Origin: Candidatus Altimarinota bacterium
GTDB taxonomy: Bacteria; Patescibacteriota; Gracilibacteria; GCA-2401425; JAJOLG01
Assembly: GCA_021129445.1 (NCBI GenBank)
Contig: JAJOLG010000023.1
Location: 7,179 to 13,388 of the forward strand
Direction of reading: 5' to 3'
DNA: 6,210 nucleotides
Part shown: positions 1 to 6,180 of the stretch, piece by piece
Layout of the letters: each line of letters opens with the position of its first letter
How positions within the stretch are numbered: the first letter of the stretch is position 1
Program-made: the position numbers and the translations under genes
Notes under the pieces: model-generated
The model's input: the letters and a program-made list of their open reading frames with translations, nothing else
What the model was told of the DNA's origin: nothing
Databases searched by the model: none

Positions 1-2
1 TA

Positions 3-239
3 AACAACCTAAACAGCACAATCTCCAACAACCCCAACCTAACCCCACAACAAAAACAAGATCTTCAGAATCAAATACCACAAAATATTATAAAACCTCA
101 GGCTCCAATAATAAATTTTTTAAACAAAATTCAGTGTATTTTTATCGAAGACAATTGAAAATACACTTATCAATGAGTTATAAAAAATTCTGAATGAAAA
201 ATTTTTTCAATCAGTGAGAAAAAAATTTCTGATAAATAA
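3..239 (+). CDS. C-terminal part of an unrecognised protein (5' end outside window)
   Basis: This partial reading frame gives 78 residues and ends in TAA. It is open only if TGA is glycine; TGA codons lie at 156, 174 and 195, in the context EDNGKYTYQGVIKNSEGKIF. The first 35 or so residues are rich in Asn, Gln and Pro (for example NNPNLTPQQKQDLQNQ), which looks like a flexible linker. The last 40 alternate hydrophobic and polar residues, like a short beta-rich domain at the C-terminus. No catalytic motif, membrane helix or sorting signal is visible. The stop is 12 bases before the femAB-like gene, so the two are probably co-transcribed. The frame one base earlier is also open to 235 under code 25, but its product is a basic, unstructured string; this frame was chosen for its protein-like composition. 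The family is not recognised and no function is proposed. Confidence 0.7.
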
Positions 240-251
240 AAAAAATAAAAA

Positions 252-1217
252 ATGATAATTACACAAGAAAAATTTTTAGAAAGATATAAAAAAATTCAAA
301 ATTCCGAAAAAAATATTTGGCAAAGCCCAGAATGGGGGATTTTTCAGTGAAGTATTGGGAAAAAAGTTTTTTCAATTTGAAATGAAAATTATTTATCTCT
401 TGTTGTAAAACAAGATTTATGATTTGGACAAAATTTTTTACATGTTCAGAGATGACCAATTTGACAGACGGATGACGATTTTTTTATTGATTTAAAAAAA
501 TTGGCAGTTCAAGAAAAATCTGCATTTATTCGTATTTCTCAAAAAGATGAAAAAAATCAATGAGAAGAAATTTTTTATAATTGAAAAAAATTTTCTGCAA
601 TTTGAGATATTTTCCCAAAATTTTCTCTTTTGGTAGACTTAACAAAATCAGAGGATGAAATTTTAATGGAAATGAAGCAAAAATGACGCTATAATATTCG
701 TCTTGCACAAAGAAAATGAGTAAAAATTTTTGAAGAAAAAAAATCTGAAAAAGCAGCAGAAATTTTTTATAATTTATCTATTGAAACAACAAAAAGAGAT
801 TGATTTTCTGGGCATTCAAAGGAAGTTTATCAGGCGATGATTGAAAGTTTGTGAGAAAAAGTTAAGGTGTATATTTGATATTTTAAAGACGAGCCGATTT
901 GTGCGTGAATTTTTACTTTTGAGTGAGAGATTGCAATTTATTATTATTGAGTATCTTCAAATTTACATCGTAATTTAATGGCACCATATTTTTTGCAATG
1001 GAATGCGATTGTTGAGGCAAAAAAAATGTGATTTAAAAAATATGATTTTTTATGAATTGCATGAGATGAAAAAAATAAAAGTGATCCTTGGTACTGAATC
1101 ACTAATTTTAAAATGAAATTTTGATGAGAAAAAGTTGAATACTTTGAGGCTTTTGATATCCCAGTGAGTTATTTTAAATATTTTTTATACAGATTGAAAA
1201 AATTTTTAAAAATCTAA
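252..1217 (+). CDS. FemAB/FemX-family peptidoglycan bridge aminoacyltransferase
   Basis: A 321-residue protein with 22 in-frame TGA (Gly) codons and 4 GGN. FemA/FemB/FemX enzymes transfer amino acids from aminoacyl-tRNA to the peptide stem of lipid II in the cytoplasm, building the interpeptide bridge of peptidoglycan. Family hallmarks are visible: an N-terminal NIWQSPEWGIFQ segment (residues 21-32), a GRYNIRLAQRKGVKIF block (145-160), TKRDGFSGHS (180-189), the second GNAT-like fold with CAGIF and YYYGVSSNLHRNLMAPYFLQW (217-250), and a closing KYDFLGIAGD plus WYGITNFKMKFGG (263-292). The length is slightly shorter than staphylococcal FemA or FemB because the coiled-coil arm is missing, as in FemX-like and many uncharacterised members. 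The transferred amino acid cannot be read from the sequence. The ATG at 252 follows an A-rich leader without a Shine-Dalgarno sequence and lies 12 bases after the preceding stop. The 3' end overlaps the convergent gene by 12 bases. Confidence 0.9.
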
Positions 1218-1586
1218 AACTCATGAGTTATCAAGAGTTGAGGGTTCTGCCGAATAATCACCAGAAAGTCTTTTGATTATTAAGTTAAACATTTTCATAA
1301 TTTGTTCTGTATCCAAATATTTTAAAAAATCTGCTCACATAAAATTTCATGCAAAATGCACTGCAACAACAGCAAATCACACTATAAAAAGTCATAAAAT
1401 TGCATATCTAATTGTTAACCAGGCTTTTTTCTTTTCCTCTTCGGCATCATCTCAATCTCATGCCATAATCATCTGAAATCATCATTTCATAATAAAAAAT
1501 AATGTCATTGTTCAAGCGGCAATTACTGATGCAGCAATTGCAAATGCGATTACTTGTGAAAAACTGATATCTGTTAAAATAACCAT
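1206..1586 (-). CDS. Small two-helix membrane protein, VirB2/TrbC pilin-like
   Basis: A 126-residue minus-strand gene running from ATG (1586-1584) to TAA (1208-1206), with 10 TGA glycine codons and one GGT. Two hydrophobic helices are clear: residues 11-33 (QVIAFAIAASVIAAG...) and about 61-83 (YAILGLFIVGFAVVAV...). Between them is a short charged loop, GGFQMIMAGDGDDAEEEKKK (35-54). This plan, helix then GG..M..GDG(D/E) then an acidic-basic run then a Gly-rich helix, resembles the small pilin-like membrane proteins (VirB2/TrbC type) common in candidate-phyla-radiation genomes. The residues after 85 form a polar tail not expected of a minimal pilin. There is no long signal peptide. A role in a type IV secretion or pilus-like assembly is inference from shape only; other small membrane proteins are possible. 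It diverges from corA across 75 bases and converges on the femAB-like gene. Confidence 0.8.
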
Positions 1587-4471: not shown

Positions 4472-4509
4472 TATAAATAAAAAAGTTAATTAAAAAATAA
4501 TTATTGAAA
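4472..4509 (+). promoter_or_regulatory. Leader of the surface-protein gene
   Basis: This short A/T-only leader follows the terminator. TATAAA (4472-4477) is a possible -10 box, with no good -35 at the right distance. TTGATA (4442-4447) with TAATTT (4466-4471) at 18 bases is an alternative, but it overlaps the terminator hairpin. No Shine-Dalgarno sequence precedes the ATG at 4510. The TTGC-type motif seen before the three upstream genes is absent here. Confidence 0.25.
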
Positions 4510-6180
4510 ATGATAAAAATCCTACAAATAATATTTTTAACAATTTTTCTGCAATTAAATGTATTTGCAGAAGAATTTAATTCAGATTTATCTTTAAGTG
4601 CAGAAAATACATTTTTTTCTACAAATGATCCAATTGTAAATCAAAAATTGAGAATTTATGCTACCATTGAAAATAAATCTGATCAAGATTTATTTTGATA
4701 TGTTAGATTTTATGATGAAAGCTTAAAAAAGCAGATTTGAAAAAATGAAGAAATTTCAATAATAGCTTGAAAATCTGATGATGTTTTTGTTGATTGGATA
4801 ATTCAGTGATATTGAGAACATGTGATTTCTGCAAGAGTGGTTCCGCAGAAAAAAAGCTGAGATAATCCTGCAAATAATAAGGTTACAAAAAAAATTTTTG
4901 TAGATTTTGATTCTGATTGAGATTGAATTCCAAATAGAAAAGATTCTGATGATGATAATGATTGAATTTATGATGTTGATGATGCTTTTCCGCATAATTC
5001 AAGAGAAAGTTCGGATTGTGATTGAGATTGAATTTGAGATAATGCTGATCTTGATGATGATAATGATTGAGTAAAAGATGATAATGATGTATTTAAATGT
5101 GATCCAAAAGAGTGGGATGATACTGATCAGGATTGAATTTGAGATAATTTAGATCAAGACGATGATAATGATTGATTGCTTGATATTGAAGAAAAAAATA
5201 CAGATTCGAAAAAATGGGATAGTGATTGAGATTGAATAAATGATAAAGATGATTTGTTTCCAAATGATAAAAAAAGATGAATTGATACTGATTGAGATTG
5301 AATTTCTAATTTTGATGATGCAGATAATGATAATGATGGTGTAAATGATGTTGATGATATTTTTCCTCTTGATCCAAAAGAACAGTATGATACTGATAAA
5401 GATTGAATTTGAAATAATGCCGATGATGATAACGATAATGATTGATGGAGTGATAAAAAAGAATTTAATACTTGAACAAATCCTTTAAAAAAGGATTCTG
5501 ATTGAGATTGATACATTGACCCAAGCGATGTTTTTCCACTTGACCCAAAAGAATGGGCAGATAATGATAAGGATTTAATTTGAGATAATGCTGATAAAAA
5601 TGATGATAACGATGATTTTGAAGATAATAAAGATATTTTTCCGCTTAATCCAAAAGAACGGGCAGATTGCGATAAAGATTGAATTTGAGATAATGCTGAT
5701 GATGACGATGATAATGATGGCATAAAAGATATTAATGATGCTTTTGTTTGCAATGCAAATGAATGGAAGGATTCTGATTGAGATTGAATTTGAGATAATG
5801 AGGATAAATTTGATTTTAATAAAGCTCCAAAAGCCGAAATCACCTTTTCTCCAAAAGATAATGTAAAAGTTTGAGATATTGTTCATTTTAAAGCAATTAC
5901 AAATGATGACGATTGAGAGGTTGTTGATGTTTTTTGGAAAATAAATTGAGAAAAAATTTCTTGAAATGAAATTGATTACAAATTTGAAAAAGAGTGATAT
6001 TTTGCAATTCAATGTTTTGTAAAAGATGATGTTTGAGAGGAAACTAAAAAGGAAGAATTTATTTTTGTGAAAAAAAATAATTTTATTGAAAAATTTTTAT
6101 TGTGAATTTTAATATTTTTTGCAATTTTGTTTATTTTCTCTTTAAGAAAAAAATGATTTAAAATAAAAAAATTCAAATAA
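4510..6180 (+). CDS. Membrane-anchored surface protein: CARDB-like, TSP type-3 calcium repeats, PKD-like domain
   Basis: A 556-residue exported protein with about 41 TGA and 2 GGN codons. Residues 1-20 are a Sec signal peptide ending VFA before EE; there is no lipobox Cys. Residues about 24-130 resemble a CARDB adhesion domain (KLRIYATIENKS, then EEISIIAGKSDDVFVDWII). Residues 134-437 hold ten Asp-rich thrombospondin type-3-like units with DxDxDGxxD loops such as DSDGDGINDKDD, expected to bind Ca2+ and form a stiff rod. Residues about 439-521 look like a PKD beta-sandwich (APKAEITFSPKD, GDIVHFKAITNDDDGEV, YKFEKEGYFAIQCFVKDD). A membrane helix at about 529-545 and a Lys-rich tail anchor the C-terminus. 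There is no LPXTG or PEP sorting motif. The likely role is a calcium-dependent adhesin or surface stalk; ligand unknown. The start is the ATG at 4510; an in-frame TTG at 4504 would add two residues. It follows a terminator and has a candidate terminator after it, so it is probably transcribed alone. Confidence 0.9.
4909..5820 (+). repeat. Ten-unit thrombospondin type-3-like coding repeat
   Basis: Within the surface protein, units begin at residues 134, 169, 204, 237, 259, 294, 329, 351, 386 and 421. Steps are 35, 35, 33, 22, 35, 35, 22, 35 and 35 residues. Full units carry two Asp-rich loops (D.D.DG.GDN.D, then D.DDNDG..D..D.F) and end in a linker such as FPLDPKEW. The 22-residue units (4 and 7) lack the middle DDNDG half. 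Three units make a super-repeat of 90-92 residues (169-258, 259-350, then an incomplete third). The DNA copies are diverged, so this is an old protein repeat rather than a recent tandem duplication. Confidence 0.88.

Follow-up and report, generated by a model that had tools for sequence, protein, structure and literature searches.

Does the 3' part of this locus contain a gene and, if so, what would its product do for the cell? The window, by which we mean the whole stretch of 6,210 nucleotides that was analysed (G000:C18:7179-13388), belongs to a draft genome of 673 kb in 77 contigs. Under translation table 11, the longest open reading frame at the start in question covers 64 amino acids (4504-4698, from a TTG at 4504). 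When UGA is read as glycine, a frame of 556 residues extends on the forward strand from the ATG at 4510 to the TAA at 6178-6180; table 25 gives 558 residues if the TTG at 4504 is taken as the start. The contig ends 30 bases past this stop codon. An earlier note had proposed that recoding conceals a complete surface protein here, with a signal peptide, a CARDB-like domain, ten thrombospondin type 3 (TSP3)-like units, a PKD-like domain and a membrane anchor, and had suggested a role in contact with other cells.

UGA codons at glycine positions

We aligned the 556-residue protein with 20 full-length homologues that share 35-49% identity with it and whose frame has no internal stop under the standard code. 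At the 41 columns where the window has a TGA codon, glycine accounts for 420 of 595 homologue residues (71%), versus 237 of 7486 (3%) in the other columns, while tryptophan occurs only six times among the same 595 residues. Seven of these columns, at residues 63, 102, 139, 176, 299, 428 and 469, hold an invariant glycine in all aligned sequences. Chance is excluded, since 20 standard-code homologues align with the protein over its full length and present glycine at TGA columns. The comparison of sequences thus confirms that the frame is an intact gene in which UGA is read as glycine, and the recoding and the completeness of the frame are borne out as the earlier note had them.

The neighbouring genes tell the same story: those for FemAB, a type IV secretion system (T4SS) pilin, CorA, a peroxiredoxin and FtsX are intact and match their families only when UGA is translated as glycine. 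This code has been reported for Absconditabacteria (PMC8080830). We found no anticodon UCA among the 26 tRNAs of the draft genome, from which other tRNAs are missing as well, nor any protein with an RF-1 domain. A code with UGA as glycine still requires a release factor for TAA and TAG, and the RF-1-domain release factor is probably absent from the draft assembly. Near the surface-protein gene we observed no promoter excess and no terminator.

A table-11 annotation would leave a 64-residue stub of this gene. The locus also provides an example of a conserved acidic protein retained through a change of code, with UGA now at nearly all of its glycines (41 of 43).

Head, stalk and anchor of the protein

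The coordinates of the features that we recognise in the protein are collected in Table 1.

Table 1. Features of the surface-protein gene (nucleotide positions are those of the window)
Feature	Position	Strand	Basis
Complete coding sequence, 556 aa, 41 UGA read as Gly, TAA stop	4510..6180	+	Homologue alignment, TGA columns
Predicted signal peptide, residues 1-20 (MIKILQIIFLTIFLQLNVFA then EE; VFA/EE)	4510..4569	+	Hydropathy, model helix 2-19
CARDB-like beta-sandwich, N-terminal, residues 23-135	4576..4914	+	VIA-align to 3idu, homologue Pfam matches
Stalk (residues 133-436) with 16 calcium-loop motifs in about ten TSP3-like units	4906..5817	+	Motif counts, TSP_3, phmmer
Cys170, opens first 27-residue-spaced Cys pair of stalk	5017..5019	+	Spacing
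Cys197, putative partner of Cys170	5098..5100	+	Spacing
Cys387, opens second 27-residue-spaced Cys pair of stalk	5668..5670	+	Spacing
Cys414, putative partner of Cys387	5749..5751	+	Spacing
PKD domain, residues 437-522	5818..6075	+	Pfam over gathering score, fold match to 4aqo
Predicted transmembrane helix, C-terminal, residues 525-547	6082..6150	+	Hydropathy 2.55, model helix 525-547
Post-helix end, residues 548-556 (KGFKIKKFK), within basic tail SLRKKGFKIKKFK	6151..6177	+	7 Lys/Arg after the helix

Hydropathy peaks at 1.95 in the signal peptide and at 2.55 in the C-terminal transmembrane helix, and both segments are present in all 21 aligned sequences, as expected from the export signal and anchor proposed earlier. 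An AlphaFold2 model of the protein has a mean pLDDT of 85.6 and a pTM of 0.42, so that the relative placement of its domains is unreliable. Foldseek and VIA-align match lists covered the two end domains only, and the CARDB and PKD folds emerged from this structure prediction as the earlier note had anticipated.

The predicted structure of the N-terminal domain superposes on 3idu over 107 of 110 residues (Z 13.1, rmsd 2.2 A). This entry, like 2kl6, represents PF1109 of Pyrococcus furiosus, a CARDB protein (PF07705) that shares its fold with our domain at 20% identity and with a weak profile match: taken in isolation, the window domain scores 15.4 bits, under the Pfam gathering score of 22.7 (E 0.021). 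When N-domains of the family are isolated in the same way, 13 of 21 match CARDB at E <= 1, the best at 1.5e-6. The CARDB assignment of the window domain draws on homologue matches and the predicted fold, not on its own profile score.

The PKD domain is over the gathering score of two Pfam families (PF18911, PF00801), with 27.7 versus 27 bits for PKD_4 (2.9e-6) and 26.6 versus 23.5 for PKD (6.2e-6). Its predicted structure aligns over 84 residues with 4aqo, from the collagenase ColG (Z 13.8, 1.4 A). Unlike its ColG counterpart, it stands as a single copy beside the membrane with no attached enzyme.

Between these two domains lies a highly acidic stalk of 304 residues, 99 of them aspartates, with a net charge of -82. 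We counted 15 DxDxDG motifs in the stalk, whereas 2000 shuffles that preserved its composition had 0.94 on average and 6 at most; full DxDxDGxxDxxD motifs number 10, versus a mean of 0.09 in the shuffles. Altogether, 16 matches to a twelve-residue calcium loop are found, which we grouped by eye into ten units, the number given in the earlier note: seven two-loop units of about 35 residues each, and three short units that have one loop.

DxDxDG loops and the alternation of long and short units are shared with the type 3 repeats of thrombospondin-2 and COMP (PF02412, PF18884). Two of the window units also have paired cysteines as in thrombospondins, whereas most have none, and the window protein differs from thrombospondins in being membrane-anchored and in having no C-terminal lectin domain. 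The window stalk itself falls under the Pfam gathering scores (21.7 versus 25 for TSP3_bac, PF18884; 10.1 versus 25 for TSP_3, PF02412, E 0.69). In the family as a whole, TSP_3 matches 19 of 21 members, the best at 6.8e-15, and phmmer aligns the stalk with thrombospondin-2 (1yo8) at 3.4e-11, a value affected by a large composition bias. Homologues, the thrombospondin-2 match and the motifs together suggest that the stalk is of TSP3 type. By its motifs, and by what is known of thrombospondins, it would bind Ca2+; that it would stiffen on doing so, as the earlier note proposed, is more conjectural.

Across the 21 aligned members, stalks have as few as 5 and as many as 16 loops while both end domains are conserved, as expected for a spacer. 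The two cysteine pairs of the window stalk, 170/197 and 387/414, have the same spacing of 27 residues. Pairs spaced 27 or 14 residues apart occur in the stalks of five homologues from one family, and most other stalks are free of cysteine. This paired spacing, with cysteine absent from most stalks, suggests extracellular disulfides, in which case Cys170-197 and Cys387-414 would be bonds formed outside the cytoplasm.

The earlier note had named two outcomes that would count against it, the absence of TSP3 or PKD matches and orthologues devoid of signal peptide or anchor. When we looked at these points, PKD was matched in the window protein, TSP3 in its homologues, and both terminal segments throughout the alignment. 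The domain order CARDB-TSP3-PKD is upheld as well, PKD by Pfam and fold, the other two through homologues and, for CARDB, the fold. Sequence and structure prediction thus give strong support to a CARDB head on an acidic stalk that is exported and anchored in the membrane.

Each of these domains is already known. Their combination appears to be new to the curated collections, since we found no model of the whole protein in Pfam, NCBIfam or PHROGs, and PHROGs gave no match of any kind to the window protein. Our search of PMC for TSP3 or CARDB surface proteins of this lineage returned the Vampirococcus paper only, most subscription journals lying outside such a search; we came across no description of the combination. 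The 'CPR pilus' model PamR (NF058578) was considered and set aside: it matches some members weakly, and the match that we inspected covers 30 residues at the PKD domain, with the N-domain unmatched.

Relatives and gene neighbourhoods

We searched for relatives with a model of the N-domain only, a choice that avoids the acidic repeats. Strong matches (E <= 6.6e-29) were obtained in 87 of 353 genomes of the class, with one strong copy in each, and are followed by a gap, the next matches having E-values of about 1e-9. Roughly three in four genomes of the class have no recognisable copy, so that the protein is not indispensable to the class. It is present in many of its families. Only in the window's genome is the frame of a strong match interrupted by TGA, and the standard-code homologues present their parts in the same order as the window protein. 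When the full protein was searched against genome contigs, marine Euryarchaeota matched in the repeat region only, with no match to the N-domain.

A second class of the phylum has matches in 49 of 191 genomes, 48 of which hold a single copy; these relatives are shorter proteins. Those that we inspected have a signal peptide and a CARDB-like domain, with fewer TSP3 loops (none in some of them). Their C-terminal part consists of a PKD domain and a transmembrane helix in several cases; in others, a coiled or glycine-rich segment precedes the helix. One second-class locus, L116, bears two tandem copies (5796-7289 and 7304-8497) that divide the architecture: the first combines CARDB and TSP3 with a glycine-serine linker, whereas the second joins CARDB to a PKD-type domain and has no TSP3.

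In a tree of the end domains, the window protein does not group with its order-mate G001, and support for deep nodes is weak. We therefore do not claim vertical descent within the order. Few surface proteins of these uncultured organisms can be followed, as this one can, by sequence as well as neighbourhood through many families and two or more classes. It can thus serve as a practical marker and as a concrete starting point for studying how a minimal envelope is built.

The neighbourhood of the gene is well conserved within the class. Out of 46 genomes inspected, 34 have gyrA just upstream and 32 have the gene for ribosomal protein L31 (rpmE) just downstream, the usual arrangement being gyrA-X-rpmE on one strand, often with gyrA only a few bases away. 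Family f9 departs from this, its gene being located between a DUF4012 gene and, directly downstream, a PF18895 pilin gene. In the window's genome, gyrA and the L31 gene are on other contigs; the neighbour of the surface-protein gene is ftsX, and corA is found two genes upstream. A further gene of PF18895, 'type IV secretion system pilin' (126 aa, window 1206-1586, reverse strand), lies four genes upstream. At the other end of the window, positions 1-235 (forward strand) encode the end of a 380-residue protein (L001:6271-7413) in which three S-layer homology (SLH) domains occur, a hint that the cell possesses an S-layer or else SLH proteins bound to its wall.

Loci of the second class have other neighbours, of which MurJ, LGT and CorA were verified by Pfam. 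The murJ gene is directly downstream of the relative in 12 loci (L114, L115, L117, L139, L142, L144, L147, L151, L152, L156, L157 and L158), lgt adjoins it in L116 and in L143/L170, and corA is adjacent or near in several loci; a penicillin-binding protein (PBP) transpeptidase gene is near the relative in L122. At the murJ loci, a GT2 glycosyltransferase gene or a PduL-like gene often precedes the relative. We regard neighbourhood as weak evidence of function.

What might the stalk carry its head to?

We consider it probable, though well short of certain, that the protein is an old, mostly single-copy component of the envelope, in which a Ca2+-binding membrane stalk presents a CARDB head. In the envelope of these small bacteria it would be a type-I membrane protein that is exported, loses its signal peptide by cleavage and stays anchored in the cytoplasmic membrane. 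The stalk would take up many Ca2+ ions and fold into a defined spacer, which the two disulfides may lock. This spacer would carry the CARDB head across the wall or S-layer, or past it, and the head could there bind a fixed partner in the envelope: a glycan, an S-layer protein or another surface protein. A general envelope function is the most likely main role, in view of the age of the gene, its mostly single copy per genome and its location among housekeeping or envelope-biogenesis genes; cell-cell contact would be a possible consequence.

A wider proposal, which we make tentatively, is that of an undescribed, ancient envelope family of the candidate phyla radiation (signal peptide, CARDB, TSP3 stalk of variable length, PKD or another membrane-proximal part, transmembrane helix) that might form a calcium-dependent pillar from the membrane to the outer surface (S-layer) of these minimal cells, with mostly one copy per genome, in core-gene neighbourhoods.

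Could the head instead reach for another cell? The earlier note favoured contact with host or prey, the stalk holding the CARDB head off the membrane for a ligand on that cell, and the predicted anatomy is indeed that of a stalked surface protein. Lineages that read UGA as glycine include a predator rich in surface proteins with adhesion domains (PMC8080830). In NCBIfam, the sole match is to MtsC (NF047638), a cell-cell cohesion protein of Myxococcus that is also TSP3-rich and exported (E 2.1e-14). However, this match is confined to the repeats and reaches 53.2 bits where 350 would be required; the N-domain taken alone has none, and the window protein has no MYXO-CTERM. The head is also well conserved (53% mean column identity), unlike that of typical host-specific adhesins, and the gene occurs mostly once per genome in many families, as gyrA-X-rpmE or, elsewhere, beside murJ or lgt. 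Conserved ends, a variable stalk and core-gene neighbours are more in keeping with a general envelope component than with an adhesin specific to a host, and we now think a dedicated contact protein rather unlikely, though conservation would not prevent a surface protein from taking part in contact. A gene that appears broken under the standard code, with nearly the same protein in many standard-code relatives, looks like a shared part of the envelope, not a special weapon.

Slightly less likely again is that the protein assists wall synthesis or helps to shape the cell as an accessory factor, whose extracytoplasmic domains would touch the peptidoglycan machinery. Such a factor would agree with the murJ and lgt loci of the second class, with the PBP transpeptidase gene in L122 and with ftsX in the window, but in the class to which the window belongs it is gyrA and rpmE, and not genes of the wall, that usually flank the gene, and a variable number of calcium loops would serve no obvious need. 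The mostly single-copy gene, its conserved ends, variable stalk and core-gene neighbours lead us to rank the envelope component first, the contact protein second and the wall-synthesis accessory third. These three readings overlap, as they share the same anatomy and differ only in the partner of the head.

A store or buffer of divalent cations at the surface, tied to metal uptake, seems improbable. An acidic stalk with this charge and its 16 loops might collect Ca2+ or Mg2+, and corA is close by in the window and in several second-class loci; yet in none of the 20 relatives from the class that we examined is corA close to the gene, and conserved CARDB and PKD domains would be needless for a buffer. 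Finally, there is next to no chance that the frame is a non-gene, an acidic low-complexity stretch created by reading through TGA: its composition is biased (118 aspartates in 556 residues), but full-length standard-code homologues with conserved ends and a confidently predicted fold oppose this idea, and the glycines that homologues present at the TGA columns refute it.

A second open frame overlaps the stalk on the opposite strand (window 4968-5843, reverse strand; 291 residues, or 229 under table 11). It is rich in serine and leucine, mirrors the aspartate-rich repeats and is most likely not a gene.
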